A DNA stretch of 64,000 nt from NCBI GenBank assembly GCA_002067705.1, contig MVRL01000086.1:1-64000 (forward strand), written 5' to 3'. Positions 13,017 through 29,073 of the stretch are shown here, in pieces (position 1 is the stretch's first letter; every line of letters starts with the position of its first letter). The position numbers were made by a program, and so were the translations under genes. This DNA comes from Methanosaeta sp. PtaU1.Bin112 (lineage in GTDB: Archaea > Halobacteriota > Methanosarcinia > Methanotrichales > Methanotrichaceae). A model generated the notes under the pieces. It was given only the letters and a program-made list of their open reading frames with translations, had not been told where the DNA came from and ran no database searches.

Positions 13017-13083
13017 AACCAGCGACCACTAATTTATTCAATGCCGGATGCCACAGGCGGCAAGAAGCCGAAAAAGAGGTAAG

Positions 13084-13158
13084 CGGGCGCGGAGGGATTC
13101 GAACCCCCGATCTACAGCTTAGGAGGCTGCCGCCTTATCCAGACTAGGCCACGCGCCC
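13084..13158 (-). tRNA. tRNA-Arg (CCT anticodon)
   Basis: Minus-strand cloverleaf with acceptor GGGCGCG paired to CGCGCCC, anticodon stem GCAGC/GCTGT around the loop CTCCTAA, and a T arm GGGGGTTCGAATCCCTC. Anticodon CCT reads AGG. It separates the hisG region from the radical SAM island; the island lies on its 5' side, so it is not placed like a typical tRNA 3'-end integration site. Confidence 0.94.
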
Positions 13159-13269
13159 TTTTCCGGCAATCACCTATAACAAACACGTATATCAACCTTT
13201 TCCTGATCAGTAAGCCACATCCTATAAGGCATAAAAATGTTCATATACCAAAGAGCAATATTATAACTA

Positions 13270-14715
13270 ATGGATTATACGGACGTTCTTTTCTTGCATC
13301 CATCAGCCCATCCAAGCAGACCCATGTACCTTGCCATGCCCATGGGCATGATAAGCGTGATGAACCGCATTAAAGACCTCTACTCGGTCAGAGCTATTAA
13401 TGTAGGTCTCGAGATGTCCCTGCAATCCGATTACCAAATCCAGGACGAATTGAAAAGGATCGACTTCAATATAGCTGCCATAGATCTCCACTGGCATGAG
13501 CACTCTTTTGGTTCTTTAGAGCTGGCAAGGTTGTGCAAGCAGATAAATCCGGAGTGCAAGGTGGTGCTGGGTGGAATTACTGCGTCCCTGTTCTCAGAAG
13601 AGATTGTGTCAAATCACAACTGCGTAGATTTCATAATCAAGGGAGACGGAGAGAAACCATTTTTCACCTTGTTAGAAGCCATAGGGCGCGAACACTCTGA
13701 AGAAAAAATCACTAAAGTATCTGGTATCACATATTTTGATCAGTGCGATATTACCGATAACCCTGTATCCTGGACTACCTCCAATGAAGACGACGAAGAT
13801 TACGTGGATATAACCAAATTAAAACATTGGGAGGAGTATCTTAAGTCCAATATCAATTTCTACTCGGCACACCAATGCTGGCGCAGCTACTGGCTTTGCA
13901 TCGGCAAGGGATGCATACATAACTGCAGCTTCTGTGGCGGAGGAGGCGCTGTTCATAAGAGGTCATTTGCCAGACCCACCACATTCTTTAGATCGACCGA
14001 AAAGGTCTTCAGAGATCTCAGGAGACTCTCTGAGATTGGAGTTCATGTTGCAAACTTCTCTCATGACCCTCAGATGGAAGGAGAAGAATATTGGCGTAGC
14101 CTATTCCACAAAGTCAAACAAGGAAACTTGGACATAGGGGGGTACATTGAGCTAGACGGCCTTCCTGAGGAGGACTTCATTAAAGAGTTTGCAAACTCAT
14201 TTACACCTGAACTGTCGACACTGGTGATAACTCCTCTTTGCGGAAATGACGAGGTGCGGGCAAAAAATGGAAAGAAATTTAAGAATGTCGATCTTATGAG
14301 GAAGATCAATCGGTTGGAAGATTACAGCATTCCCTATGTATTATATTTTGCTGTTGGCCTTCCTTTTGATAGCGAAGAAAGCTTCAACGAGACTATCTCA
14401 CTGGCAGAGAAGGCCCTATTCAATCCCCATCTCAAGATGATATTCAATACACCATTGACCCTTGACCCGGGTTCACCAATGTTTTGCGAGCCTGAGAATT
14501 ACGGTATCTTTCCCCATTTGAAAACCTTTTGCGACTATTACAAAAGGTGCAAAAATAGAGCTGAAGGAAAGGCTTATGATTCATTCGGGTATCATACAGA
14601 TCGTCTCTCAAATGAAAGTATGTTGCACCTAATGGATAAGTGGAACGCGTTCTTTGAGGAAAAGATACCACAGATTCTGGCAAACTCGACCAGTAGCAGA
14701 TTGAATTTTCTATAG
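13270..14715 (+). CDS. Cobalamin-binding radical SAM protein (class B-like)
   Basis: A 481-aa protein in three parts. Residues 1-150 resemble a Rossmann-type B12-binding domain (HPSRPMYLAMPMGMISVMNRI; CKVVLGGITASLFSEEI; DFIIKGDGEKPFFTLLEAI). The radical SAM motif CIHNCSFC supplies C215, C219 and C222, followed by the barrel. The C-terminal 100 residues contain LYFAVGLPFDSEESFNETI, usual for this class. Such enzymes often methylate unactivated carbon, or rearrange rings, in natural product and RiPP pathways. It is followed by a GNAT-like gene 11 nt later and faces the seven-gene SPASM operon tail to tail. A link to that pathway is inference. Confidence 0.85.
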   Translation: MDYTDVLFLHPSAHPSRPMYLAMPMGMISVMNRIKDLYSVRAINVGLEMSLQSDYQIQDELKRIDFNIAAIDLHWHEHSFGSLELARLCKQINPECKVVLGGITASLFSEEIVSNHNCVDFIIKGDGEKPFFTLLEAIGREHSEEKITKVSGITYFDQCDITDNPVSWTTSNEDDEDYVDITKLKHWEEYLKSNINFYSAHQCWRSYWLCIGKGCIHNCSFCGGGGAVHKRSFARPTTFFRSTEKVFRDLRRLSEIGVHVANFSHDPQMEGEEYWRSLFHKVKQGNLDIGGYIELDGLPEEDFIKEFANSFTPELSTLVITPLCGNDEVRAKNGKKFKNVDLMRKINRLEDYSIPYVLYFAVGLPFDSEESFNETISLAEKALFNPHLKMIFNTPLTLDPGSPMFCEPENYGIFPHLKTFCDYYKRCKNRAEGKAYDSFGYHTDRLSNESMLHLMDKWNAFFEEKIPQILANSTSSRLNFL

Positions 14716-14726
14716 AAGGACGCAAG

Positions 14727-15683
14727 ATGGATACACTCGAAGATGCCAAGGTGGAATTTCTCCTGCCACCCCTAAGACGTTTGACTCATGCCCCTAATAT
14801 AGCTCCATTTTTGGTGTCTAATTCCCAGAATTCTCCTCAGAGATTTCCCATAACCATTTTCAAACGTTCTCAAGAAGGAACTATTGAGTGGCTGGGATTT
14901 GTATTTTGTATATTATATACATCTAAAGAGGATAGAAGAACCTTACGAATCACATATCCGATCTCCTTTTCCGATAAAGGTAGATTCGCAATTTATCAAC
15001 GCTTGATCAACGAAGTAGAGAGGATTGCTTCCGCATCAAATGTGGATATTTTAGAGTATGAAGGTTATTCTATGGTAAAGGGCGAATTGCTCTTTCCTTA
15101 CTCAGAGGACTTCTTCGGCAATGAATACAATCCAGACTTTCTAGCTGAATTAAAGTCTCAGGGATTCGAAACCATTGGGAAAAAGGCTTCCTATCAGTTG
15201 GACGGAAACACGCAAATTGACCAAATGTCGCTGCGTTCGAGCACAAAATGCATTGATATCCACACAGAACCGGACCTTTTCGCCCGCAGGATAAAATACC
15301 TGCAAATATGTCTTAAATCACCGGATTATCCGGAGCTGATGGATATTTCTGAAAAAGCTCTAAAGCAACCGCCGGATATAGTTGAGAGGGCATATTTCCA
15401 GGAAGACCACGTCTTTTTTTTAAAGAAGAATGATCTTGAAGGCTGTGTTAGATGGGCCCCTACGGCAGACAATAAAGCCAAGATATTCAGAATCCTATTC
15501 AACCAAAGAGTCGACGATAGCATATTGCTTGCAGGTATATTAAAATCAAGCGAAAAAATCCTTACAAGAGGTGTTTCGTCACTGCAAATCTCTGGTATCT
15601 CATCCAGAGGAATTATTGATATTTTTGAAGAGATTGGATTAGAACCCATCCAGATAGAGCTAAAATTGCATAAGCAAATCTAA
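14727..15683 (+). CDS. GNAT-like protein, probable acyltransferase fold
   Basis: A 318-aa protein of uncertain family. Residues about 88-160 (RLINEVERIASASNVDILEYEGYSM, then LLFPYSEDFFGNEYNPDFL, then LKSQGFETIGKKASYQL) follow the pattern of a GNAT acetyltransferase, where an FG-x-x-YNP element precedes the last strands; the C-terminal 100 residues may hold a second GNAT-like half. AAGGA lies 6 nt before the ATG. It is 11 nt downstream of the B12 radical SAM gene, so the two form an operon. Its stop codon overlaps the convergent last SPASM gene by 4 nt. The acceptor substrate cannot be read. Confidence 0.55.
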   Translation: MDTLEDAKVEFLLPPLRRLTHAPNIAPFLVSNSQNSPQRFPITIFKRSQEGTIEWLGFVFCILYTSKEDRRTLRITYPISFSDKGRFAIYQRLINEVERIASASNVDILEYEGYSMVKGELLFPYSEDFFGNEYNPDFLAELKSQGFETIGKKASYQLDGNTQIDQMSLRSSTKCIDIHTEPDLFARRIKYLQICLKSPDYPELMDISEKALKQPPDIVERAYFQEDHVFFLKKNDLEGCVRWAPTADNKAKIFRILFNQRVDDSILLAGILKSSEKILTRGVSSLQISGISSRGIIDIFEEIGLEPIQIELKLHKQI

Positions 15684-16999
15684 ATGACCCTGTCCATTCT
15701 CTGTTCCAAGTATACTTTTATCTTTTCATGCACAAGATCTTTGGATGAGACGCAATGGGGGCTGTGATAAGTTCCGCTACAGGTGAGGGCTTTATGAGCA
15801 CATCCCCCATTGCAGAGAGGCAGGTAAGAACAGTCGCAACATTGCGGAAAGTGAAGCGCATCACGAGTCCTGAAATCTATCATCCGATAAGCAATAGCAG
15901 CAAGTTCTCCATCATCTCCAGCAAGGGCAGCTCTTTTATCGACCATGGGCACCGTCATTAAGCAATTATATACATTCCCTACGGGATCAATGATTGCAGA
16001 GCAGTCGCTGACAAATGGACATGATAGGATGATATGATTGCCGGTCGGCTTGGCCAGAACATTGAATCCATAATCTACGGCCATTCTCCAAACCTCCGAG
16101 AGAAGGTCAAGGTATTCTTCCCAGGGGGTACATGAGAGCGGGTAGAAACTGCATATATTGCTCCCAGGGACAGCAGGACAGATCGAAAGTCCGATGTTAT
16201 CACCGTTCAATCCTCTCCGTATTAAATCATCGAATAATAGCTCAATATCCCTGTAGCTCTCAGGAGATATGTGCAATCTCAAGCAGATCGGAATTTCTTT
16301 GCGCTGAAGCAGCAAAGAAGACCCAACTACCTCCTCGTACGTACCGTTTCCGTTTTTATGTCTTCTTACCTTATCGTGATGCTCTTTAGAGCCCTCCAGG
16401 GTTAGTTGTACCACACTCAATGTTTTGCAGAGCCTTTCTACGATATGTTGCGAGAGGAGAGTACCATTGGTTATGAGTGCACTGTTAAAGATCATACCAT
16501 GAGAACGCGACCATGAGCTAATCTCTTCTAATAGCCGCAGGACGATATTAGGATACCGCAGGGGCTCTCCGCCAAACAGCCTGAGGTTGATATATTCTCT
16601 CTTGCCCTCCAATGACTGTTTTTTTACAAAGCCAATGGTCCTTTCAAGTGCCTGATTGTCCATGCAAATAAGGGAGCGATTCTGACAGCCACAGTAACTG
16701 CAATTGAGGTTGCAGTCACTGTTCGTGAAGATGCTGAACTCATACTCGACTGGATTGAAAATCTTGTTTTTCACCTCATATTCATAAAGTCTCGTTTCAT
16801 CTACTTCGTTCTCTACCAGGAAGCCTCGATCCTTCATAGGCATTAGAAGGCTCTCGCCCAATAGGTCCAAGTTTCCCATATTTAGCGCGGCTATTGCTTC
16901 CTCATCGAGCAAAGAAATAGCACCGGTGTAGGCGTTGAAGACCGCTATCCGATCATTGCCTTCCATGGGAACACATATATTGAATTTGGATTTCTTCAT
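15680..16999 (-). CDS. Radical SAM/SPASM peptide maturase-like enzyme, seventh in the tandem array
   Basis: Last gene of the operon, 439 aa from ATG 16999, which overlaps the preceding TGA as ATGA; the longer frame to 17089 would run 30 codons into the upstream gene and lacks the shared MK-x-S-x-(F/Y)N start. The radical SAM cysteines are C96, C100 and C103 in CNLNCSYCG; it is the only member without the following Tyr-Glu/Gln seen in the other six. The barrel carries RLFGGEPL (the GGEP SAM-binding motif) and ALITNGTLL. The SPASM end reads CCDCSYLPLCNGGC. Such enzymes reductively cleave SAM and install thioether or C-C links in peptides. It is probably the most divergent paralogue by eye. Confidence 0.9.
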   Translation of the reverse strand: MKKSKFNICVPMEGNDRIAVFNAYTGAISLLDEEAIAALNMGNLDLLGESLLMPMKDRGFLVENEVDETRLYEYEVKNKIFNPVEYEFSIFTNSDCNLNCSYCGCQNRSLICMDNQALERTIGFVKKQSLEGKREYINLRLFGGEPLRYPNIVLRLLEEISSWSRSHGMIFNSALITNGTLLSQHIVERLCKTLSVVQLTLEGSKEHHDKVRRHKNGNGTYEEVVGSSLLLQRKEIPICLRLHISPESYRDIELLFDDLIRRGLNGDNIGLSICPAVPGSNICSFYPLSCTPWEEYLDLLSEVWRMAVDYGFNVLAKPTGNHIILSCPFVSDCSAIIDPVGNVYNCLMTVPMVDKRAALAGDDGELAAIAYRMIDFRTRDALHFPQCCDCSYLPLCNGGCAHKALTCSGTYHSPHCVSSKDLVHEKIKVYLEQRMDRVI

Positions 17000-18348
17000 G
17001 AGCCATACCATCCTTCCGTTTCCATGAAATAGTTCTTTATTGAGGCTTTGATGCCCTCGATGGAGGACCATGCATCGGCACAGCCACATGAATTGAAGGT
17101 TCCATTTCTCATTTTAGCGGAAATTGGACATCCACCCGCGCATAATGGCAGCAGAGGGCAGCTTTTGCATCCCGAGATTGCAGCAGGGTTCCTGTCCATA
17201 AGATCGTAGTATACCTTTGTCCAACAGACTTCCCCATCCGCCTCTATGGTTCCCAGCGAATATTCCTTTTGCCCTGTGAAGACGGGACAGTGGTAAACGT
17301 CCCCTCGCGGGTCTATCATATGCATCCCCTCTTTTAGATAATCGCATGATAGCCCTACCGTTTCACCTAACGACTTCTCTGCATCCAGGCAATGTCTCAG
17401 TCCAGCATCAGTAGCTATGGCTCTAGCCAATGGCATTAGCTTATGCGCATTCTTCAAGCTCTCTAGGAATAGCTCCTCACGATGAAAGTTGATACACGCA
17501 TTGGAGGGAGCGGTTAATGAGAAATAAAAGTGGAAGTTCGAATTCATATCAAATCCCCTGCGCTTGATATCCTCAAAAAGCTCTCTGAGATTTAGAAGGT
17601 CTTCGGTGATATGGATCCTCAGAGCCACCTGCTTCCCGGTCTGCAGAAACCGAGAGGTTGCAGCCATCACGATCTCGTAAGTTCCTCTGCCATCCTTGAA
17701 AAACCTCTTTGCATCGTGAGATTCGTTATATCCGTCAATTGTGAATTGAACTGAAGATATATAGCGCCCCAGTCTCTCTAAAGTATCTTCTGCGAGGAGA
17801 GTTCCATTCGATGTTAGGGTTCCATAGTACTTAATTCCGCGCTCTTCACACCACGCATAGATTTCCTTCGCAATCCGGAAGCACAGCTCTTGCTCCAGCA
17901 ACGGCTCCCCGCCGAAGAAACCAAGCGTTATCCGACTGCTCTTATTTAAAATAGTGGCTTTTTTTATAAAACTCAAGACGGACTGGATTTTCTCTTCATT
18001 CATTGACCCCTTAGTGTTTTCAAGTTCCTTCTCATAGCAATAGGGACATGAAAGGTTGCAGGCAAAGGTAGGGTATATTATGAAGCTAGATATATCAGTA
18101 TTTTCTTTCCATCTTCTGTGCATGTCCTCGTAAAAATTTAGTTCATCCATCTCCTCCTCTTTCACAGCTCCTAAGTCTTTCAGACCGCATAGGAGTCTCT
18201 CCTCCACCATCCCACGCTCTATCTCACCCCTCTCCAGCATCTCCTTAAGATCATTATCTATGACGGCAACAGATCTGAATAAGGTATTAAAGAGCAGGTG
18301 CCTTTCACAGTCGAAAGGAACAAATACATTGAACATGGAGTTTTTCAT
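16996..18348 (-). CDS. Radical SAM/SPASM peptide maturase-like enzyme, sixth in the tandem array
   Basis: A 450-aa member. An N-terminal region of about 85 residues (MKNSMFNVFVPFD...) precedes the radical SAM cysteines C97, C101, C104 in CNLSCPYCYE. The barrel shows GFFGGEPLLE and TLTSNGTLL. An auxiliary-cluster region around CDYLKEGMHMIDPRGDVYHCP comes next, then the SPASM block CKSCPLLPLCAGGC, followed by a CGC pair near the end. Its ATG overlaps the upstream TGA by 4 nt and its stop overlaps the next start likewise, which implies coupled translation. Confidence 0.92.
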   Translation of the reverse strand: MKNSMFNVFVPFDCERHLLFNTLFRSVAVIDNDLKEMLERGEIERGMVEERLLCGLKDLGAVKEEEMDELNFYEDMHRRWKENTDISSFIIYPTFACNLSCPYCYEKELENTKGSMNEEKIQSVLSFIKKATILNKSSRITLGFFGGEPLLEQELCFRIAKEIYAWCEERGIKYYGTLTSNGTLLAEDTLERLGRYISSVQFTIDGYNESHDAKRFFKDGRGTYEIVMAATSRFLQTGKQVALRIHITEDLLNLRELFEDIKRRGFDMNSNFHFYFSLTAPSNACINFHREELFLESLKNAHKLMPLARAIATDAGLRHCLDAEKSLGETVGLSCDYLKEGMHMIDPRGDVYHCPVFTGQKEYSLGTIEADGEVCWTKVYYDLMDRNPAAISGCKSCPLLPLCAGGCPISAKMRNGTFNSCGCADAWSSIEGIKASIKNYFMETEGWYGS

Positions 18349-19688
18349 TCTATCACTTTGAGCCGATCCGAGTACTTGGATCTGATATAAAACAGGATCT
18401 TTTTATATTCCAGTGTTCGGTGGAGAGCGCAGTCTTTCCCAAAGTAAGTCCGATTTGAGAGAAGAGACCTGTAGGCACAGCCTCCACTGCATGTGGGCAA
18501 ATAGACACAATTGAAACAACTCTCCAGCTTGAGAGGATCTCGGGCCATGAACTCGCATAGCTCAAATGACACATCTATAAAGCGCCCCATGCTATCGATG
18601 CGAGCTACTTTATGATCCTGCTGGCCCACAAGAGAGACACACTTGTAGACATCTCCGAATGCATCTATCAAGTAGGAGCTATCGCTGGCAAAGCTGCAAT
18701 AAGGCTGAATGAAAGATGGTGTTGGCTTAAAGGCCATGACAAAACCCTTCTTGAGCCCCTCCGCCCAGATGGTGGGGAGGATATCTTCATATGAGTCCTC
18801 ATCGATGCAAAGAGATGAATAGGAACAGCAAGCCGGGTTTAATTCCATTAGGGGAAATGCATAAAGCCTGATGCCCTTATCCTCGCTGAAGCCCTTTTTT
18901 TTCAAATCATCAAATAGCTCCGCCAAAAGCACGATATTTTCCATAGAAACCTGTACTCTCAGAATAACGGAAATCCCCGCCTCCCGAAGGAGTGGTATCG
19001 ACTCTAAAATCCGATCGTATGTTCCTCGTCCATTGCAAAAAACCCTTAATCGGTCATGATACCACCTAGGTCCGTCCAAGGTCAACTGGACGGCATCGAC
19101 ATGGCCCGATATCGTATTAACAGTCGCCCTGGTGAGCAGAGTCCCATTAGAGATTAAAGCGCTCTTAAAGTTGACGTTCTCAGAATTGCACCAGGAGCTT
19201 AGGGATCTCAGGATTTTCATCCCTCCATTGAGGCAGAGCAGGGGTTCTCCCCCATACAGTGCAAGGGATAGATTTCTAGATCCTGTTTCTTTGACCTTGC
19301 CAATTATCGCCTTAATAACTCTCTCAACCATCTCATCGTCCATACTCTTTTCAGGTTTTGTTGTTCTACCTTCATAGCAATAGGGACATGATAGGTTGCA
19401 CTTATAGGTGAGAAGGATGCTGAAATGCGCATCACGATTGGAGTATCTATTCTGAAGATAATTATACTTGAATAGTCTCCGTTCATCAACGCCGTTTTCC
19501 ACAATCAACCCCATTTTTTCGAGGCGATTAACCATCTCGCTATCTAGCTCATCGATCCGCACGTCCTTTGATCCAAGTATGCCCTTCAGATCCTCGTCTG
19601 CAAAAACAAGGGCTCCGGTCATTGTGTTGAAGATTGCGTATTTTCCATCGCATAATGCAATAAAAACGTTGAATAGAGAGCCCTTCAT
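18345..19688 (-). CDS. Radical SAM/SPASM peptide maturase-like enzyme, fifth in the tandem array
   Basis: A 447-aa member with radical SAM cysteines C97, C101 and C104 (CNLSCPYCYE), SAM-binding ALYGGEPLL and ALISNGTLL, mid-protein PYCSFASDSSYLIDAFGDVYKC that probably ligates the first auxiliary cluster, and SPASM block CFNCVYLPTCSGGC. The start codon abuts the stop of the previous gene with no gap. The variable inter-motif region (about residues 250-330) differs clearly from its neighbours, as expected if each paralogue handles a different peptide site. Confidence 0.92.
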   Translation of the reverse strand: MKGSLFNVFIALCDGKYAIFNTMTGALVFADEDLKGILGSKDVRIDELDSEMVNRLEKMGLIVENGVDERRLFKYNYLQNRYSNRDAHFSILLTYKCNLSCPYCYEGRTTKPEKSMDDEMVERVIKAIIGKVKETGSRNLSLALYGGEPLLCLNGGMKILRSLSSWCNSENVNFKSALISNGTLLTRATVNTISGHVDAVQLTLDGPRWYHDRLRVFCNGRGTYDRILESIPLLREAGISVILRVQVSMENIVLLAELFDDLKKKGFSEDKGIRLYAFPLMELNPACCSYSSLCIDEDSYEDILPTIWAEGLKKGFVMAFKPTPSFIQPYCSFASDSSYLIDAFGDVYKCVSLVGQQDHKVARIDSMGRFIDVSFELCEFMARDPLKLESCFNCVYLPTCSGGCAYRSLLSNRTYFGKDCALHRTLEYKKILFYIRSKYSDRLKVIE

Positions 19689-21038
19689 TCAAGTCCCCCA
19701 GATGAGAGTTGGATATTTATGTGCCAGGTGAGTTAAGATCTTCTTATTATAAAACTCTTTGAGGTGACAACCGTCGGGTTCCTGCGCAGAAGAAGGCCTG
19801 ACCGGACATCCACCGTTGCACAATGGAAGGTGGCTGCAATCCTTGCACGCTGTGGCATCCGTTGGGCTTGCGGTGATGGCATCGTAATATGAAGGCAACC
19901 AGATTGCGGTGCCATCTTGGCTAATGCTTCCAACAGAGTATCTCTCAATACCAGCAACCGACGGACAACTGTAAAGGCGAGCGGACGGATCAATGACATA
20001 GCAGCCATTTTTCAGAAAACCGCAAGGAAGCCGACTAAATGGAAGAAGGCTATGTTCCTGACCAGCATCCACATGCAATGATTCTCCCCAACCAAGTTCT
20101 CTGGCCATGTTCCAGATACAAGGCAATAGCTCAATATTCTTTAGTTTTCTCCGCAAGCTTTTTTTGCTTGAAGTGTTGAAACATTCGTCTTTAGGTTCGA
20201 TTGGCATAAAATAAAGGTAGGTTCTTGGCCTGCCCCTAAGCCCTATAGCCTCAAGATCTCCCAGGACTTTTGCAAAGTCGCCCTGGCCCGTACGGTCTCC
20301 AATGTGAATCCTAACGGTAAGGTGTATATTACTTTCTCCAGCCAATGATATTGCTTTCATCAGATCAGAATAAGTCCCTCTACCACCCTTGTAGAACCTC
20401 ATTTTATTATGTTCTTCTTCAGGGCCGTCAAGAGTAAAGTGAACAGATGAGATGAATGGTCTGAGCTTATCGAAGGTCTCTTGAGATAGCATTGTCCCAT
20501 TGGTGGTCAAAGCTGAGAAGTAATTCAGTCCTCTACTCATAGTCCACTTAGAGATGCTCTCGGCGATTTGTATGCACAGATCACTTTCTAGAAGAGGCTC
20601 CCCCCCATAAAGACCTAAAACTACCGATCTACTATGATTTTCCATAACCTGATTTTTAATGAAGTTAGTTACGTTCTCCGCAATGTTCCTATCCATCGAT
20701 CTGCTTCGAGATATATTTAAGCTATCCTCATAACAATAAGGGCATGAAAGGTTGCAGGATAATGTGGGAAGTACCAAGAAGCTTGAGATGTCTGTAGAAT
20801 ACTTATTCTGGTTATGCTCGAACGCATAAACATTTCTTTCATCTAGGTCGTCTTCCACCAGGAATCCCGAATCTACGAGGGTGAAAAGATCCTCTGGACA
20901 AATCATCTCCAGTGAATTGCTCTCTATGGCAGTCTTCATCTCGCTATCCACCAGGATCGAAGTGCCCTTAAGAGCATTGAATATGATGGAATTGCAGCCA
21001 TCTGTTTGTATACAGATATTGTAAATCGAGGATTTCAT
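19689..21038 (-). CDS. Radical SAM/SPASM peptide maturase-like enzyme, fourth in the tandem array
   Basis: A 449-aa member: C95, C99, C102 in CNLSCPYCYE; GLYGGEPLLE and ALTTNGTML in the barrel; CGFLKNGCYVIDPSARLYSCP as the likely auxiliary-cluster region; SPASM CKDCSHLPLCNGGC. After the SPASM block the tail has only one Cys in place of the FCG/YCG motif of other members. The start overlaps the previous stop by 4 nt. Confidence 0.92.
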   Translation of the reverse strand: MKSSIYNICIQTDGCNSIIFNALKGTSILVDSEMKTAIESNSLEMICPEDLFTLVDSGFLVEDDLDERNVYAFEHNQNKYSTDISSFLVLPTLSCNLSCPYCYEDSLNISRSRSMDRNIAENVTNFIKNQVMENHSRSVVLGLYGGEPLLESDLCIQIAESISKWTMSRGLNYFSALTTNGTMLSQETFDKLRPFISSVHFTLDGPEEEHNKMRFYKGGRGTYSDLMKAISLAGESNIHLTVRIHIGDRTGQGDFAKVLGDLEAIGLRGRPRTYLYFMPIEPKDECFNTSSKKSLRRKLKNIELLPCIWNMARELGWGESLHVDAGQEHSLLPFSRLPCGFLKNGCYVIDPSARLYSCPSVAGIERYSVGSISQDGTAIWLPSYYDAITASPTDATACKDCSHLPLCNGGCPVRPSSAQEPDGCHLKEFYNKKILTHLAHKYPTLIWGT

Positions 21039-22381
21039 ATCACTAACCTGCTGAACTTCTCAGGATAAATCTCCTTGAGATAAAGAAGGATCCTTTTGCT
21101 CATGATTCTCTTTATAGGGCCGCAGTAGGATGCGTTAAACGACTCTTTATTGAGAAAGGCTCTTGATGCACACCCGCCTCCGCAATTTGGCAGATAGACG
21201 CAATCTGCACATCCCTCCATATCGAGAGGATTGCGGGTTAATATATCGTAGTATGCACTGTTCCATTCAACTCCACCATCTTTGATCACCCCGACCCGAT
21301 GAGCTTTGTCGCCTGCAGTGAAAACGCACTTGTATATGTCCCCCAAGGGGTCAACAACGTAGCGCCCACGCTTCTCGTTATTGCATGAAACCAGTTTCTG
21401 CTTGCGCATATTGTACATGTGGTATTTGCTCTGCCAACCCTTTTCATAGATCACTCGGAGTAATGAAGGCCTGATCTCGAGCACAGTATTGATGTCCTTG
21501 AGGCAGAGCTCGTCATTGGTAAAGAACTCGCACAAATCATAATAGGAGATGTGTGCTGTATAAAATGAAAGGTTAGGCCAGCTCTTCAGACCATTCTTAT
21601 CCAAGTTATCTAAGAGCAAGCCCAGACCATCAGAGTTCTCCACATTCAGCCTTAAGAGAATGCTGGTCTTTGACCCCGCCAAAAGTGATATATTTCTTAA
21701 TATATCTTCGTAGGATCCATCACCATTTTTATAGCATCGACTTTTATTGTGACTTTCAGGAGGACCATCCAATGTAACTTCCACTGCCGCGAGATAGGGG
21801 GTTAATAGTCTGACCGCATTCTCATTCAGCAATGTACCATTGGTCTGAAGTACGATGTTGACTTTTATATTGTTCTCATCTCCCCACTTCGACAGTTCTT
21901 TGGAGATCGCATAACACGAATCAAGACAAAGGAGGGGCTCTCCACCATAGAGCTTGATTGCTATTTCGCGAGTGCCGTCTTCATGAGTGGTCTTCTTTAT
22001 GAAATCTATAACCTTGAGGAGCGTCTGTTCATCCATCGATGAATTCAATATCTCTCCAGAGCCTTCATAGCAATAAGGGCAAGAGAGATTGCATGCGAAT
22101 GTCGTCAGTACTATGAACAGAGAATAGCTCGGTGCATATTTCTCAATATTGTATCTATACAAATATAATTTACGTTCATTGATATCATCATGAACTATCA
22201 CTCCGCAATTGAGGAGCGTCTCTTTTACACTCTGATTGCTAATAGAACTATTTAATTCGCCTTTTTCTATACAGAGTTTCATATCTTCATCTACAATCAG
22301 GGCAGAGTCGTTTAGAAAATTGTAGAGTACATACTCACTTTCGTCGATTGGAACAAACAGATTGTACATTGAACTCTTCAT
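21035..22381 (-). CDS. Radical SAM/SPASM peptide maturase-like enzyme, third in the tandem array
   Basis: A 448-aa member: C97, C101, C104 in CNLSCPYCYE; KLYGGEPLLC and LQTNGTLL; CNNEKRGRYVVDPLGDIYKC; SPASM CADCVYLPNCGGGC; terminal FNASYCG. It is separated from the preceding stop by 15 nt, the only real gap within the seven-gene run. Base composition here is strikingly AT-rich: one 60-base line (22141-22200) has only 14 G or C. Confidence 0.92.
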   Translation of the reverse strand: MKSSMYNLFVPIDESEYVLYNFLNDSALIVDEDMKLCIEKGELNSSISNQSVKETLLNCGVIVHDDINERKLYLYRYNIEKYAPSYSLFIVLTTFACNLSCPYCYEGSGEILNSSMDEQTLLKVIDFIKKTTHEDGTREIAIKLYGGEPLLCLDSCYAISKELSKWGDENNIKVNIVLQTNGTLLNENAVRLLTPYLAAVEVTLDGPPESHNKSRCYKNGDGSYEDILRNISLLAGSKTSILLRLNVENSDGLGLLLDNLDKNGLKSWPNLSFYTAHISYYDLCEFFTNDELCLKDINTVLEIRPSLLRVIYEKGWQSKYHMYNMRKQKLVSCNNEKRGRYVVDPLGDIYKCVFTAGDKAHRVGVIKDGGVEWNSAYYDILTRNPLDMEGCADCVYLPNCGGGCASRAFLNKESFNASYCGPIKRIMSKRILLYLKEIYPEKFSRLVI

Positions 22382-22396
22382 ATCTATGACCGCCGC

Positions 22397-23686
22397 TCAG
22401 CATTGAACTCCATTATGATACTTGTTCTCAAGGTCAAATAGCACTTTCATATCTACCAATGCCTTTGTTGAACCACAATAAGGAGCATGGTATGTCCCAG
22501 AGATTCGATTGGCCATATGCGGACAGCCCCCTCCGCAAATTGGAAGGTATACACAATCCCTGCATTCAGATATCTCCAGAGGGTCTCTTGTCATGAAATC
22601 GTAATAGCCGTAATCCAGGAGTATTTCACCATCCTTGGCGGTGCCGACCGCATGCTCCTTCTTGCCCACAGCAGATATGCATTTGTACACGTCTCCTAAG
22701 GGATCGATTATGTAAAGGCCTGAATAGACATGGCAAGGTACGATTTGCGCCCTAAGCGTCTGGTTTGGATCATACTTCCACACCTGGATCATGGCAGCTA
22801 CGTCATCATTCTCTATAAAAGAGCCAAAATTGCCACACAGATCCGTCAGCCTCTTGAGAGGATAAATGCTGAGCCTAAGTCCTGGATCTCTCAACAAGCC
22901 TTCCTCCCCGAGATCCTTTAAAAGGTCCGCCAGATTTGAGACATTATCCAAAGCTACCTGAACTCTCAAGGAAACGCAAATGCCGGCATTTCGAAAGGAG
23001 CGTAGAGCACTAAGTACTTCATCATAGGTTCCCTGGCCATCTTTATGGACCCTCTTCTTGTCATGGAAGGGCTTAGAGCCGTCGAGTGTCAGCTGGACGG
23101 CATGCAAGTAGGGGACGAATTTTTCTATTACAGAGGGGGTTACTAGAGTGCCATTGGTGACCATGGCCCCATCTAATCCAATATTATGTTCCTTCGACCA
23201 TGAGGATAGCTCCTTGAAGATCTTTAGCCCTATGTCTTGGTTGAGAAGCGGCTCACCTCCAAAGAGCATAACTTTAAGGCTCTTGGCTCCATCAGAAATC
23301 ACTTTATCTTCGATTGCCTGGATAATTTGCCATGCCATCTTTTCGTCCATAGAGTCATAAATAGCCTCACCCATTCCTTCGTAACAGTAGGGACATGCTA
23401 AGTTGCATTTATAGGTAGTAATAACCACAAATCGCAATTCTCTATTTGAGTAAACTATGCGATTGTACAAATTAGCAAAGATTAATCGCTCATCTATATC
23501 ATCTTCAACTAAAATCCCCAGTGACGCAAGGGAAGCCACCTCATTATCGCTCAAAGTTTGAAAGCACCGTCCCTCAATACATTCCTTCATATCTTTATCT
23601 ACTATTAGGACGGAGTTAGATAAAGTATTGAAGAGAGCATATTCGCCTTTGAATGGCAAAAATAAATTGTACCGAGAGCTCTTCAT
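22397..23686 (-). CDS. Radical SAM/SPASM peptide maturase-like enzyme, second in the tandem array
   Basis: A 429-aa member, slightly the shortest. Cysteines C94, C98, C101 lie in CNLACPYCYE; the barrel shows MLFGGEPLLN and AMVTNGTLV. The auxiliary region reads CHVYSGLYIIDPLGDVYKC, and the SPASM block CRDCVYLPICGGGC is followed by YHAPYCG. Start and previous stop overlap by 4 nt (ATGA). Confidence 0.92.
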   Translation of the reverse strand: MKSSRYNLFLPFKGEYALFNTLSNSVLIVDKDMKECIEGRCFQTLSDNEVASLASLGILVEDDIDERLIFANLYNRIVYSNRELRFVVITTYKCNLACPYCYEGMGEAIYDSMDEKMAWQIIQAIEDKVISDGAKSLKVMLFGGEPLLNQDIGLKIFKELSSWSKEHNIGLDGAMVTNGTLVTPSVIEKFVPYLHAVQLTLDGSKPFHDKKRVHKDGQGTYDEVLSALRSFRNAGICVSLRVQVALDNVSNLADLLKDLGEEGLLRDPGLRLSIYPLKRLTDLCGNFGSFIENDDVAAMIQVWKYDPNQTLRAQIVPCHVYSGLYIIDPLGDVYKCISAVGKKEHAVGTAKDGEILLDYGYYDFMTRDPLEISECRDCVYLPICGGGCPHMANRISGTYHAPYCGSTKALVDMKVLFDLENKYHNGVQC

Positions 23687-25029
23687 ACAACATCCCCAAT
23701 AGTTTCAGTATATTTTAACCCGTATTTTTGTTTCAAGATGTACCGTGTAACCTCTTTTGTGGCACCGCAGAAGGGGACGTTGAAGTCCCCATTATCAATG
23801 TGAGCTTGAACTGGGCATCCTCCACCACACAGAGGCAGATAAGCGCAAGAACAACAATTCTTGAACTTCAAAGGGTTCCTTGCATGGAGATCATAATATC
23901 GACCTGCCCATTTTGCTCCGTTATCGCCTATCTCCCCCAATTTATAGTCTTCATTGATTGTAGCAGAGGGACATAAGTATAGATTGCAGGAAGGATCAAT
24001 TACATAAGTGGTAGTCTTCAAATGCTCGCATATGGGCCGCTGTCCATCGCCCAGCTCACTATTGATGGTGAGGTGAGCTTTTTTCTCCCATTCAGCTTCT
24101 GCCAGGATTCGAGTGACTTCAGGCAATAACTCCAGATACTCAGCCTTGCTCTTTAGGTATGATTCCGAGCTATCGAGAACGCCACAGCAGGGATCAATTA
24201 ATCCAAAGTCCAAGATGAGATTCTCATAGCCGCAGATGCCCAGATGACTCAAATCGTCCAGCAACTCATGAAGAGATGAAAGCTTATCTTTGTAGAGATT
24301 GATCCTTATCGTTAAATATTTCCCACTTTTCTTAACAAAATCTATAGCCCTCAATACATCGTCATAGGTTCCTCTTCCGTCTTGATAATGCCTTTTTTCA
24401 TCGTGCAGGGACCTTGACCCGTCCATAGTGATATGAACTGCAGAGAGGTACGGGAGAATATCTGCAGATAGTTTTCCTGAAAGCAATGTGCCGTTAGTAG
24501 TAAGCGTTCCCACAAATTCAATGCCACAATCTTCAGACCATTTGGCAAGCCCATCAAGAAGGCTCACGCATGCGTCTCCCATTAAAAGCGGCTCTCCGCC
24601 AAACAGCTTGATTATCAGGTTCCTGCTATTATTCTTTAAAGACTGGTCCCGGATAAATCTTGAGACACGAACAAAGGCCTCTTCATCCATGGATTTGCGG
24701 GAAACATCAGCAACTCTTTGGTAACAATAGGAACATGATAGATTGCAGCTATATGTGGGGATTACCACAAACGTAGAGTTAAGTGAGCCATATTTCAGGC
24801 CATTATATCTGTATTCAAACTTCTTTCGCTCATCGGAGTCCGCTTCGACGATCACGCCGCAAGATCTGAGCACTTCCCTCTCATCCAAAGATAATAGCTC
24901 GATAGCTCCAGATTGGAGAGCTTTTTCCATTGGAGGGTCTATTCTCAGGATAGCCCCTGTAAAAGTATTATATAATAGATACTGAGAGCTGTCTATGGGA
25001 AAATAAAGATTAAAGGAGGATAACTTCAT
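23683..25029 (-). CDS. Radical SAM/SPASM peptide maturase-like enzyme, first in the tandem array
   Basis: First enzyme after the Cys-rich peptide gene (56 nt gap). 448 aa; radical SAM cysteines C95, C99, C102 in CNLSCSYCYQ; KLFGGEPLL and TLTTNGTLL; CEHLKTTTYVIDPSCNLYLCP; SPASM CCSCAYLPLCGGGC and terminal FNVPFCG. The N-terminal 85 residues (MKLSSFNLYFPIDSSQYLLYNT, then a stretch ending VEADSDER) are shared in pattern by all seven enzymes and may be a PqqD-like peptide-recognition module; that is inference from position and length, not a recognised motif. A purine-rich GAGG lies 10 nt before the ATG. Confidence 0.92.
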   Translation of the reverse strand: MKLSSFNLYFPIDSSQYLLYNTFTGAILRIDPPMEKALQSGAIELLSLDEREVLRSCGVIVEADSDERKKFEYRYNGLKYGSLNSTFVVIPTYSCNLSCSYCYQRVADVSRKSMDEEAFVRVSRFIRDQSLKNNSRNLIIKLFGGEPLLMGDACVSLLDGLAKWSEDCGIEFVGTLTTNGTLLSGKLSADILPYLSAVHITMDGSRSLHDEKRHYQDGRGTYDDVLRAIDFVKKSGKYLTIRINLYKDKLSSLHELLDDLSHLGICGYENLILDFGLIDPCCGVLDSSESYLKSKAEYLELLPEVTRILAEAEWEKKAHLTINSELGDGQRPICEHLKTTTYVIDPSCNLYLCPSATINEDYKLGEIGDNGAKWAGRYYDLHARNPLKFKNCCSCAYLPLCGGGCPVQAHIDNGDFNVPFCGATKEVTRYILKQKYGLKYTETIGDVV

Positions 25030-25085
25030 CCAAACCTGCCCTCAAGGATACCCCATTCATCTTCTACTAGTACCTTGCAGTCTCC

Positions 25086-25238
25086 TCAACAGCAGGCGCC
25101 ATGCCCCGCTTCCCAACACCAGAAATGAATTATGCAACACCCTAATAGCGATCCGCGCTCATCACAGGAACTACAACTGCTAGAACTCTTTATTTTGCCG
25201 CTCTTTTTAGTTCCTTCATCCAAGACATCCATCTTCAC
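25086..25238 (-). CDS. Seven-cysteine RiPP precursor-like peptide
   Basis: A short gene read directly from the minus strand. GTG at 25238-25236 has GGAG 9 nt upstream and gives 50 aa; ATG at 25232 is an alternative (48 aa) with poor spacing. The first 17 residues are charged (several Asp/Glu/Lys) and leader-like. The rest is Ser-, Gly- and Cys-rich: SSSSCSSC (C22, C25), GCC (C34, C35), WCW (C41) and a terminal ACC (C49, C50), with aromatic residues around C41. There is no signal peptide. It lies 36 nt after the 86-aa gene and 56 nt before seven radical SAM/SPASM enzymes, the normal place for a precursor of a sactipeptide- or ranthipeptide-like product. Modification is inferred; the peptide family is not known to me. 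Confidence 0.75.
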   Translation of the reverse strand: MKMDVLDEGTKKSGKIKSSSSCSSCDERGSLLGCCIIHFWCWEAGHGACC

Positions 25239-25274
25239 GGTTCCCAACTCCTGAACATTGATATATCCAAAAAT

Positions 25275-25535
25275 CTATTTGCATTTTCCTGATTTTAGCA
25301 TCTTCTCAGAAGGTTTAGTTTCTTGCTCAATGAGGTTGACAATCGATACCAAAAGCCGGGGATGATCCCTCACACTTGCGAGAACAACCGATGAGAACTC
25401 AGAATCCTCATCAAGAAGTTTCTGATACATCTCTATTTCCTTGGCATGCTTCTCCATAAAGTCAGGATTTACCGCCAGCCATTTCATGCCATCATCTATG
25501 ATCCGATCAAACTCCACCATAACGCTCACGACCAT
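25275..25535 (-). CDS. Unknown 86-aa protein, first gene of the SPASM operon
   Basis: I do not recognise this protein. It is mostly helical and acidic (MKWLAVNPDFMEKHAKEIEM in part) and ends in a short basic tail LKSGKCK with its only Cys. An internal ATG at 25520 (MVEFDRI) is an alternative start. It lies just after a TATA box and directly before the Cys-rich peptide gene in the same frame, separated by one TAG and 15 codons. Possible roles are a peptide-binding chaperone, an immunity protein, or a second precursor; none can be chosen from sequence. Confidence 0.6.
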   Translation of the reverse strand: MVVSVMVEFDRIIDDGMKWLAVNPDFMEKHAKEIEMYQKLLDEDSEFSSVVLASVRDHPRLLVSIVNLIEQETKPSEKMLKSGKCK

Positions 25536-25665
25536 ACAAATTTATTACTCAACAATTTGCTGCACATATCACCAATACGCCCTGTAGAGTTCAGCTTTGA
25601 ACGTCTGTTTATCCTCCCATTCTTGTTAATGCTGAAAAAAACCTCTCTTTAACTGTGCACCGATC

Positions 25666-25674
25666 ATATATAAA
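25666..25674 (-). promoter_or_regulatory. TATA box for the peptide/SPASM operon
   Basis: Minus-strand TTTATATAT is a good archaeal TATA match. A start site about 25 nt downstream (near 25645) gives a leader of about 110 nt before the 86-aa gene. No other strong promoter is seen before the seven enzymes, which supports a single operon of about 10 kb. Confidence 0.55.
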
Positions 25675-26026
25675 CTTATCTGTACAGTTGGTACGTTGTG
25701 AAAGTCATTAATTTTTCTCAGTATCCCATGAAAATTGCATTGACATATTTCTGCAAATCGGATCAGGGAGCAAGATTAGAGAGGAGATTGAAGGAGATGC
25801 GCGCCAAGGGCACAAAGCATTTGAAAATCAAAAATTGAGGTTTATAACATTGCCCTTCAAATCAACCACCCAATGAGAGCTTGTTCTCAATAAGCGACCT
25901 TTTGAGAGATGAACGTACAAAAGTATAATTCTATTTTTTTCGAAATATTAAGAACGCAACGCCACGGATTTATTCAAATTGTTGAAATATTGTCATTTCG
26001 ACTTTTCTTTAGCTCGCTCATTCCGA
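25675..26026. other. Intergenic stretch with one mini-ORF of doubtful status
   Basis: About 350 bp, AT-rich. A plus-strand 36-codon frame (25728-25838, starting MKIALTYFCKSDQG and ending in Lys-rich codons) is present but lacks a ribosome binding site. No tRNA, guide RNA or repeat is recognised. Confidence 0.35.
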
Positions 26027-27520
26027 TCAGCGAATCAGCACCGCGCTCAGCACAACCACGAAGAGTCCCAAGAAGAACCAGCCGAGGATCCCCTCCGCCA
26101 TGGCCAGATGCCTGTAGACGCCCACCGGATAGGTATTGACGGGAGCCTGAGATGTGGTGAACATGGCAATGCTGAAGTAGAGGGCATCGGTGAAAGAGAC
26201 GCGCGTGCTGGGACGCAGCCGCGTGTCTCCGGGAAGCTCCACGCCTTCGATCTCGAATTTGCTCATGCCCTTTCCCGCCCAGAATATGATCCCAAAGACG
26301 AGAATGGTAAAGAGACACCAAAAGGCGGTGTAGCTCACCCGAACACCATACCCGCAAGAGAGCCAGGAGATTATATCTGAAAGTTTGCCCCAGCCCCAGG
26401 GAGCCTGATCCTGACCGATTCGGCGGTATTGATAGTAACATTCGTCGGCCTCATCAAACCACTCCAGGCTCTTGTAGTTCTTCACCAGGGCCAGGTAGGC
26501 GGCTCCGTTGTAGACCATGCGGCTCTGCAGCGTGCTCCAGTGGACCACGAACTTAGAAAAGTCAGTGCTGTTAAGGTTGATCTTCGAACTCTCACTGAAT
26601 GTGGCATTGTCCAGCTGCATGCTGTAGAGCCGGGCACCTTCCAGGATCAGATCACCATTAAACCGGGCATTGGCGAAATAGGCCAGGTCGGTGAATTTAA
26701 CCCCCCCAAAGAATGCTGTATTGTTAAAGTCAACATTGCCATAGTCCGCCAACCCCCCGAAGCTGGACAGGCCGAAGGTGCTCCCCATCCAGAAGCGGGC
26801 CGCCCTAAAGAGCACGTCGCTCTCGAAACGGGTGGCGGCAAATGTGGCATTGCCTTTGAACTGGGCGGAGCGAAATGTGACCTGCCCGGCAAACTGAGTC
26901 TCAAAGAAGCTTACATCATCGAAGTCTGCATTTAAAAAAGATCCAGATCTAAGGAACTTGGCATAATTGAAGTCGACATCACTGGCAAAATTGCAGTCCA
27001 TGAAGATCGCATCCCCATCGAACTCGGCGTTGCCGAAACTGCTGTCGCCCTGAAAAGTTGTGCTGATGAAGGAAGCTGCTGCCTGGAAATCGGTCTCGGC
27101 AAAGTCGGCCTGCTTGCCGAATTTTGCACCGGCAAACTTGGAGTCTCCCAGAAATCTTGATTTTATGAAGCTGACATTCTCCTGAAAGGTGCATCTCCTC
27201 AGGTCCAGAAATTCATTGAAGGTCACACCCTCAATTCGAACCGGCCCCTGAAAACGAGAGTTTGTGATCTTAATTGACTGACTGACTGGCTCCATAGCTG
27301 GACCCAGATCCAGTTCGCCGAGGATGGTGATATTGTTATAGTCCAGAGGCTCGCCTGATCTTATCTGAGCCAGTATATCCTGGGCGGCTATGGCCTGCGA
27401 GGCTGATGATGCCCCACCAAGTCCGTCCTCTTCTGACAGGGACTCTCCGAACAGAAGGAGCAGCAAGATGACCATAGAGAGAATGTTCCGTCTGGAGACG
27501 GGACTAGATATTGCGATCAA
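26027..27520 (-). CDS. Secreted/membrane pentapeptide-repeat protein with channel-like C-terminus
   Basis: A 497-aa protein. An N-terminal hydrophobic segment (about residues 13-26) is a signal or anchor. Residues about 85-320 are pentapeptide repeats of the A-x-F type (for example SRFLGDSKFAGAKFGKQADF), forming a right-handed beta helix. The C-terminus has two membrane helices flanking a pore-like segment, DALYFSIAMFTTSQAPVNTYPVG, placed as in two-helix K+ channels but lacking the T-V-G-Y-G filter. It is a paralogue of the next gene upstream, 62 nt away. A role as an envelope sensor or channel is inference. Confidence 0.8.
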   Translation of the reverse strand: MIAISSPVSRRNILSMVILLLLLFGESLSEEDGLGGASSASQAIAAQDILAQIRSGEPLDYNNITILGELDLGPAMEPVSQSIKITNSRFQGPVRIEGVTFNEFLDLRRCTFQENVSFIKSRFLGDSKFAGAKFGKQADFAETDFQAAASFISTTFQGDSSFGNAEFDGDAIFMDCNFASDVDFNYAKFLRSGSFLNADFDDVSFFETQFAGQVTFRSAQFKGNATFAATRFESDVLFRAARFWMGSTFGLSSFGGLADYGNVDFNNTAFFGGVKFTDLAYFANARFNGDLILEGARLYSMQLDNATFSESSKINLNSTDFSKFVVHWSTLQSRMVYNGAAYLALVKNYKSLEWFDEADECYYQYRRIGQDQAPWGWGKLSDIISWLSCGYGVRVSYTAFWCLFTILVFGIIFWAGKGMSKFEIEGVELPGDTRLRPSTRVSFTDALYFSIAMFTTSQAPVNTYPVGVYRHLAMAEGILGWFFLGLFVVVLSAVLIR

Positions 27521-27582
27521 TGATCCAATAAAAAGGCGGCCCAGGATTTATCACTTTTGCATTTGCTTTGCTGGATAATGCA

Positions 27583-29073
27583 TTACCGGATCATCACCCG
27601 GCCCAATGTCACCAGAAAGAGCGCCAGCAATAGCCAGCCCAAAATTCCTTCCAGGATGACATAATATCTGTATCTTCCTACGGGCAGAAAATCGATGGGT
27701 CCCTGGGAGAGAAAGACCATTGTGCTGAAGAAGAGAGCATTTCGGATCGTGGCATGTTCGGGCAGGCTGCCCTCCTCAGCTGGCTCATGCAGAGGCTTAG
27801 CGGAGCGACGAATGCCATCTCCCCTCCAGAATAAGAGACCAAAAGACAGGATAGTGAGAAGCGACCAGAATACCGCATAGCTGGGCCTTACTCCGTAGCC
27901 GCAGGACAGCCATGCTAAGATATCGATGACCCTGGACCACCCCCAATCCTTTCCTGCTTGATTGAGGCGACGGTACTGGTAGTAGCAGTCATCCTCATCT
28001 GCAGACCAGCCCAGACCGTGGTAATTGTTGATGAGCGCCAGATAGGCTCCCGGGTCCCAGACCACATGCTCTTCAATATCATTCCAATGGGCTTTAAAGC
28101 GAGAAAAGTCGGTGTCGTTCAGGATAATACGGGAGCCTTTTGCCAATTCTGCCTTATCCAGGAGGATGGTGGATATAGAGCTTGCCTTGAAGTTGAGATC
28201 ATCGTCGAATCGAGCACTCTGCAGGCTGGCAATATCCTCAAACTTTGCGAGCCCGAAGAGGGCGAGCCCATTAAAGACAGCATCCGAGAAATAGGCCGCC
28301 TGAGAGAAGCGAGCCAGATTGAAATTCGCCTCATTGGCAAAGACTGCCTCGCCAAAGGAGGTGAGGCCGGAGAAGCTGGCCAGGCCGAAGTGGGCTGGGC
28401 CGGAGAAAAGCGAATCGGAGAAGACTGCACTGCCGAAGCGGGAAGAGAAGAAGTTGGCCCTCCCGGCGATGTTTGCAGCAGAAAAGTCCAATGCCCCCGA
28501 GAAATCAACATCCGAGAAGATGGCGTCGCCCAGAAACTGCGCTGCTGGGAAATAGGAATAGGATTCGAAATTGGAGTAATTAAAATTGGCATTGTCCATG
28601 AAGAGAGCTCCGCTGAAGAAGGCATCTTTTGCGAACTGGGCATCCTCAAAGCTTATATTGTTCCTGAAGACGGCACCAGAAAAAAAAGCCGGCTGGGCGA
28701 AGGAGGCAAAAGAGAAGCTACCGTTGGCAAAGCTGGCGTTCGCGAAGTCTGCCTGGCCGAGAAAGCTGGCCTTCTCAAAGCTGGCGTTGCTAAAGGTGCT
28801 GCCCCAAAAGATGGCATCCTGCACGAAGGTGACGCCGGAAAAAGAGGCGTTGGCGAAAGTGGAATTAGTGATCACCAAAGAGCTTGCCACTCGCCCACCT
28901 GGCAAAGATCTGAGATTAAGATCCCCCTGAATCCGGATATTATCATAATAGACCGGCTCGTTGCTCTCCAGTTGAGCAATTATCTCATGAGCGGCAATAA
29001 CCTGTTGAGCCTGAGAGGATGATGCGGCTGCCATCACGACAAGCGCCACTAATACATATAATCGCCAGGCCAT
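27583..29073 (-). CDS. Secreted/membrane pentapeptide-repeat protein with channel-like C-terminus (paralogue)
   Basis: A 496-aa paralogue of the downstream gene. The N-terminal 22 residues form a clean signal peptide ending SSQA. Repeats of the type AxFSGA, SFEKASFLGQADFANASF run from about residue 70 to 310. The conserved block CYYQYRR and the pair of C-terminal membrane helices with DFLPVGRYRY are shared with its neighbour, but the pore-like element here is IRNALFFSTMVFLSQGPIDF, again without a K+ filter. The strong codon and residue repetition creates a 354-codon antisense frame that I regard as spurious. Confidence 0.8.
   Translation of the reverse strand: MAWRLYVLVALVVMAAASSSQAQQVIAAHEIIAQLESNEPVYYDNIRIQGDLNLRSLPGGRVASSLVITNSTFANASFSGVTFVQDAIFWGSTFSNASFEKASFLGQADFANASFANGSFSFASFAQPAFFSGAVFRNNISFEDAQFAKDAFFSGALFMDNANFNYSNFESYSYFPAAQFLGDAIFSDVDFSGALDFSAANIAGRANFFSSRFGSAVFSDSLFSGPAHFGLASFSGLTSFGEAVFANEANFNLARFSQAAYFSDAVFNGLALFGLAKFEDIASLQSARFDDDLNFKASSISTILLDKAELAKGSRIILNDTDFSRFKAHWNDIEEHVVWDPGAYLALINNYHGLGWSADEDDCYYQYRRLNQAGKDWGWSRVIDILAWLSCGYGVRPSYAVFWSLLTILSFGLLFWRGDGIRRSAKPLHEPAEEGSLPEHATIRNALFFSTMVFLSQGPIDFLPVGRYRYYVILEGILGWLLLALFLVTLGRVMIR

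Follow-up and report, generated by a model that had tools for sequence, protein, structure and literature searches.

The window analysed here is a 64,000-nt stretch of the archaeon Methanosaeta sp. PtaU1.Bin112 (contig MVRL01000086.1, positions 1 to 64,000), and its subject is a cassette of eleven genes that probably directs the synthesis of one heavily modified peptide. A sequence-only reading of the window had proposed a single operon in which a small cysteine-rich peptide precedes seven tandem radical S-adenosylmethionine (SAM)/SPASM enzymes, as in pathways for ribosomally synthesized and post-translationally modified peptides (RiPPs). The seven enzyme genes, E1 to E7, are indeed complete and lie on the same strand, as confirmed by their open reading frames (ORFs), their matches to Radical_SAM PF04055 (E 3e-10 to 1e-17) and their cysteine motifs, and the 50-codon peptide gene with seven cysteines, the 86-aa ORF (P86) and the TATA-like element upstream of the array were all located (Table 1). 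From E1 to E7 the intergenic gaps are -4, +15, -4, 0, -4 and -4 nt, which bears out the statement that five of the six junctions are ATGA overlaps or abutting codons. For E7, the start was set at 16999 (MKKSKFN) and not at 17089, as the listed 469-aa ORF begins too far upstream; the chosen start gives a 4-nt overlap with E6 and an MKKSKFN-type beginning as in the other six enzymes. A convergent gene for a B12-binding-domain radical SAM protein and another for a 318-aa protein (GN) had been overlooked; the eleven genes of the full cassette form two transcription units that converge, and not one operon.

A second array and seven orthologous pairs

By means of a profile built from the seven enzymes, a second array was found in a genome of another family of the same phylum (G349). 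Its region L026 contains all eleven genes in the order and orientation seen in the window: an 84-aa homologue of P86, a 58-aa peptide, seven radical SAM/SPASM genes, and convergent homologues of the 318-aa and 481-aa proteins. Because the whole array recurs there, it is not a chance arrangement. In BLAST comparisons, the best match of each window enzyme is the G349 enzyme at the corresponding position, with 36-48% identity. A maximum-likelihood tree of both sets of seven enzymes together with nine outside relatives recovers all seven window/G349 pairs, with support values of 100/100 or 100/99 except for E6 (Table 1). Therefore, the divergence of the seven enzymes is older than the separation of the two clusters, and all seven have been retained since. 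As all seven are paralogues of one family, they might be regarded as products of a recent tandem duplication, i.e., a matter of gene dosage or an assembly artefact without any specialisation. This explanation is very improbable and is refuted by the facts that the paralogues are only ~31-41% identical to one another, are older than the split of the clusters, and keep their order in an independent genome that consists of one contig.

Table 1. Features of the cassette and its left edge (window coordinates; identities are to the counterparts in G349)
Feature	Position	Strand	Remarks
tRNA-Arg (CCT)	13083-13158	-	host gene at the left edge of the insertion; ARAGORN
Inserted cassette	13201-26023	.	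~12.8 kb, between tRNA-Arg(CCT) and pentapeptide-repeat gene
B12-binding-domain radical SAM protein	13270-14715	+	481 aa; PF02310 1.1e-8, PF04055 1.4e-10
GN	14727-15683	+	318 aa, no known family; 11 bp past the B12 gene; convergent with E7, stop codons overlapping
E7, radical SAM/SPASM peptide maturase	15680-16999	-	36% identity
E6, radical SAM/SPASM peptide maturase	16996-18348	-	42% identity; tree support 92/82
E5, radical SAM/SPASM peptide maturase	18345-19688	-	48% identity
E4, radical SAM/SPASM peptide maturase	19689-21038	-	44% identity
E3, radical SAM/SPASM peptide maturase	21035-22381	-	47% identity
E2, radical SAM/SPASM peptide maturase	22397-23686	-	46% identity; structure model made
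E1, radical SAM/SPASM peptide maturase	23683-25029	-	42% identity
Precursor peptide	25086-25238	-	50 aa, 7 Cys; GTG start behind AGGAG
P86	25275-25535	-	86 aa, first gene of the operon; no Pfam/NCBIfam family
Candidate TATA-like promoter element TTTATATAT	25666-25674	-	5' of the minus-strand operon; consensus match only

The core of the precursor peptide is more strictly conserved than the enzymes are. The window peptide has the leader MKMDVLDEGTKKSGKIKSS and a core that ends in CSSCDERGSLLGCCIIHFWCWEAGHGACC; in the alignment it reads VKMDVLDEG--TKKS-GKIKSSSS..CSSCDERG...SLLGCCIIHFWCWEAGHGACC, with the GTG start read as Met, and the 58-aa peptide of G349 reads MKFEVIEASNELTKKDLGRLKSSGSGHCDHTDPEGCSSSLLGCCIIHFWCWESGSGCC. 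The leader consensus of the two is MK[MF][DE]V[LI][DE]...TKK..G[KR][LI]KSS, and that of the core is rich in paired cysteines and aromatic residues (CCIIHFWCWExGxGxCC). Each peptide contains seven cysteines, and the cores share SLLGCCIIHFWCWE unchanged, i.e., 14 consecutive identical residues as opposed to a mean enzyme identity of 43%, for which the chance at the rate of enzyme conservation is ~7e-6. The CC...C...CC block is fixed, whereas the spacing of the two N-terminal cysteines varies, so that the spacings are 3,9,1,6,8,1 in one peptide and 8,7,1,6,7,1 in the other. The core can be written as the pattern TGYTGYNTNNTNCAYTWYTGGTGYTGG. A degenerate DNA pattern of the core matched 2 of 393 genomes of the phylum, both at a cluster with the array, and the reversed control gave no match. 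Co-conservation of peptide and enzymes in other methanogen genomes, which the sequence-only reading had put forward as a check, is thus seen in G349. Absence of the peptide beside homologous arrays had been named as grounds for abandoning the RiPP proposal, but the only other array found has it at the same place with its core unchanged.

As to the enzymes themselves, the CX3CX2C motif, GGEP, the AuxI cysteine pair, CX2CX5CX3C and a trailing cysteine (+16 or near) are present in all 14 proteins of the two clusters, all of which thereby have the radical SAM motif, the GGEP and the SPASM cysteines that broadly define radical SAM/SPASM peptide maturases. E7 is two residues shorter immediately after CX3CX2C, a trait that it shares with E7 of G349. 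The tree divides the enzymes into two sub-clades, E2/E5/E7 and E1/E3/E4/E6. An invariant cysteine shortly past GGEPLL (position 153 in E2 numbering) occurs in E1, E3, E4 and E6 of both genomes and never in E2, E5 or E7, a difference that may mark a functional split between the sub-clades.

The nearest curated families of the enzymes are all peptide maturases, with CefB first, followed by TIGR04463, geopeptide, Clo7bot and PapB. Membership in the CefB, PapB, Clo7bot and geopeptide families was rejected, as every score falls under the curated cut-off. CefB (NF038107, the Cys-every-fifth maturase) is the top match for all seven enzymes over nearly the full length, including the N-terminal domain, but the scores are 224-327 bits against a cut-off of 600, the cysteines of the present peptides do not recur at every fifth position as in CefA, and the present cassette has seven enzymes. 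The PapB ranthipeptide maturases (NF047865) have homologous radical SAM/SPASM cores (104-152 bits) and also act on a cysteine-rich substrate; however, E1 to E7 stay under the 340-bit cut-off, and the CX3D/E repeats on which PapB acts (PMC9413430) are absent from the peptide.

An AlphaFold2 model of E2, made from an alignment of the seven window sequences (mean predicted local distance difference test score, pLDDT, 77), comprises an N-terminal beta-beta-beta-alpha-alpha-alpha domain, then the barrel, and then SPASM. Its top matches among solved structures are CteB (5why, E 1e-20; 5wgg), a SCIFF maturase, and TigE (8vpo, 5e-16), which have the same succession of RiPP recognition element (RRE), radical SAM barrel and SPASM, but are only ~20% identical to E2 and act on other peptides. 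The CteB and TigE systems each employ a single maturase. Three strands followed by three helices are the topology of an RRE (PMC10352776), and the N-terminal domain of the E2 model is accordingly described as RRE-like. The locus has a conserved short precursor beside RRE-type enzymes, the combination expected of a RiPP cluster, in which the RRE part is model-based.

The remaining three proteins are also conserved between the clusters. The B12-type enzyme is 55% identical to its copy in G349. Its nearest NCBIfam is TIGR04190 (B12-binding/radical SAM, Ta0216) with 230 bits, but as the cut-off is 500, it is not assigned to that family; at 481 aa it also differs from the further relatives detected within the phylum, which are distant and have ~580-620 aa. 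GN shares 34% identity with the protein at the equivalent place in G349 and has no match in Pfam, NCBIfam or PDB. The strand order in a single-sequence model of GN (pLDDT 39), together with the sequence FGNxxNPxF, which is similar to a GNAT motif, hints at a GNAT-like fold, which we do not claim. P86 is 39% identical to the 84-aa gene at the equivalent place in G349 (L026:6464-6718); none of its Pfam or NCBIfam matches is above cut-off, and a profile search of the PDB gave no significant match. It ends in a conserved ...GxxCK tail, and its actual start may lie a few codons further in. In G349, an AT-rich box (AAAATATATATAC) precedes the 84-aa gene.

A rare island beside a tRNA gene

The cassette is a rare, horizontally acquired island. 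The alignment of the window to a congener (G036, L146) ends at 13200 and restarts at 26024. Among the hisG regions of 11 congeners, ten show the empty site, with hisG followed, after the tRNA-Arg, by the pentapeptide-repeat gene, and the remaining one (L151) yielded no neighbouring gene. The GC content is 44% in the cassette and 53-54% in its flanks, and at third codon positions (GC3) ~0.40-0.51 as against 0.62-0.71. The end of the tRNA-Arg(CCT) gene is 42 bp from the left junction. Taken together, the empty sites, the break of the alignment, the low GC and the adjacent tRNA argue that the cassette entered this site next to a tRNA gene by horizontal transfer. An integrase was not seen, and the sole pair of repeats near both ends (D14, 16 nt, 88%) is at chance level and off the junctions. 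The right end of the insertion (25698-26023) is a stretch of ~330 bp with a single 46-aa ORF (25698-25838, plus strand) and no recognisable gene, possibly the remnant of a mobilising element. Beyond it, at 26027-29073 on the minus strand, are two pentapeptide-repeat proteins whose C-terminal membrane segments resemble those of ion channels; they are found next to hisG throughout the genus and are host genes outside the cassette.

Searches of related genomes agree with this rarity. Of the 238 genomes searched in the class, only that of the window has an orthologue of E5, with one divergent relative in G006, a genome of the same family as the window genome, and of the 232 searched in the order of G349 only G349 itself has one, which rules out that the pathway is a general trait of methanogens. 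GN occurs only in the window genome among 247 genomes searched in the phylum, P86 is absent from 60 relatives, and E5, GN and the 481-aa B12 enzyme are confined to the two cluster genomes in the sets searched. A first scan of wider contig collections gave no match, and a second, with narrow patterns, gave only relatives of ~30% identity; these scans are less sensitive beyond the phylum, where copies are possible. Neither the core pattern nor the B12 enzyme was found in viral contigs, and the best matches in plasmids are only 30% relatives.

Three other loci came to light. In G006, repeated short ORFs (MFAELIKGSDDGTDPVRGWCLPMGDCPDCKCIDGKAP and kin) lie beside two divergent enzyme relatives (L027:9490-10360, minus strand) and resemble tandem precursor peptides that would belong to a separate two-enzyme RiPP system. 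A Theionarchaea contig (JACVGW010000087.1; L034:5483-8087) has a pair of radical SAM/SPASM genes that groups in the tree with the G006 pair, which suggests that the two pairs are an older, two-enzyme form of the enzyme family. A third locus (L029:7262-7624) encodes, directly 5' of a single distant enzyme relative, a precursor-like protein of 120 aa that combines QIK repeats with a CVGCDGVGGCGFCEC core.

A proposed pathway with seven maturases

We propose, with a probability of roughly 0.8, that the cassette makes one RiPP from the 50-aa precursor through seven non-redundant, leader-guided maturases and the B12 enzyme, with P86 and the 318-aa protein as helpers. The steps that we infer are leader binding, cross-linking, division of labour and methylation. 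The leader of the precursor would be bound by the RRE-like N-terminal domain of each of the seven enzymes; that domain in the model and its likeness to CteB and TigE suggest that a leader-binding domain is present in every one of them and that all seven would act on one peptide. Each enzyme would then install its own cross-link, a thioether and/or an aromatic C-C bond, at a particular place in the core; by the bond, sactipeptides (S-C alpha), ranthipeptides (S-C beta or gamma) and cyclophanes (aromatic C-C) are told apart. The presence of seven cysteines and seven enzymes in both copies prompts the hypothesis that each enzyme makes roughly one link. C-methylation or a similar reaction is the probable task of the B12-type radical SAM protein, and P86 and the 318-aa protein may be pathway-specific helpers. 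The product would be structurally fixed and not diversifying, and the cassette would move as an island between methanogens. The division of labour, already suggested by the sequence-only reading, is supported at the level of sequence by the fact that seven enzymes, divergent from one another and complete in their motifs, are conserved one-to-one, which argues against redundancy.

Several points weigh against this proposal. The pathway is known here from genes alone and in two copies only, so that the equal numbers of cysteines and enzymes could be a coincidence; the RRE assignment depends on topology and on a seven-sequence model with a mean pLDDT of 77; and the cassette has no conserved transporter, protease or immunity gene. 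The sactipeptide thuricin CD, whose biosynthesis by TrnC and TrnD likewise needs more than one radical SAM enzyme, is a bacterial system with two enzymes and two precursors, in contrast to the archaeal seven with a B12 enzyme and one precursor, and it strictly needs the radical chemistry of only one of its two partner enzymes (PMC12093266). Hence, the intact motifs are no proof that every one of the seven enzymes acts. PapB, furthermore, installs six thioethers alone (PMC9413430), and together these precedents mean that the match between the numbers of cysteines and enzymes proves nothing by itself.

Both precedents also speak for a RiPP pathway that does without one link per enzyme, in which one or two of the enzymes catalyse and the others are structural partners or act on P86 or on unlinked peptides; the link count need not equal the enzyme count, and the conserved Cys-Lys tail of P86 would suit a second substrate. 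We consider this arrangement unlikely, however, as every radical SAM and SPASM cysteine is kept in 14 of 14 enzymes, where losses would be expected in non-catalytic partners, the seven have been retained one-to-one over a deep divergence, and no second cysteine-rich peptide is present in the cassette.

A separate question is where the product of the seven-maturase pathway would act. The core, which is almost invariant and contains paired Cys, His and Glu, and the lack of a conserved transporter, protease or immunity gene, lean slightly and weakly towards an internal or fixed-target product. That it serves within the methanogen as a cofactor, redox carrier or metal ligand derived from the peptide, and is not an exported antibiotic, is a tentative view to which we give a little less than even odds: the patchy distribution and the acquisition as an island fit a dispensable or competitive trait, the invariance of the core is drawn from two sequences only, and export could use host proteins. 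The chances seem evenly balanced for the further suggestion of a new RiPP class, in which the seven maturases and the B12 enzyme would each install a distinct modification on an invariant seven-cysteine core rich in His, Phe and Trp, yielding a densely cross-linked product with a fixed function in methanogens, e.g., as a cofactor or metal carrier.

Radical SAM RiPP clusters as a kind are already known. As far as our searches show, what is new here is the multiplicity of the enzymes, the conserved set of eleven genes, the core sequence and two protein families that lack relatives. The sequence-only reading knew of no described cluster with seven tandem maturases, and none with so many acting on one peptide was found in the literature searched, in which subscription journals were little covered. 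If each enzyme has its own site, seven homologous and closely comparable enzymes that differ in regiochemistry on a single substrate of 50 residues would be a natural experiment on how such enzymes choose their sites, and the cassette would be a ready tool set. More broadly, the cassette suggests the existence of a complex, mobile RiPP in methanogenic archaea, a group in which few RiPPs have been characterised.

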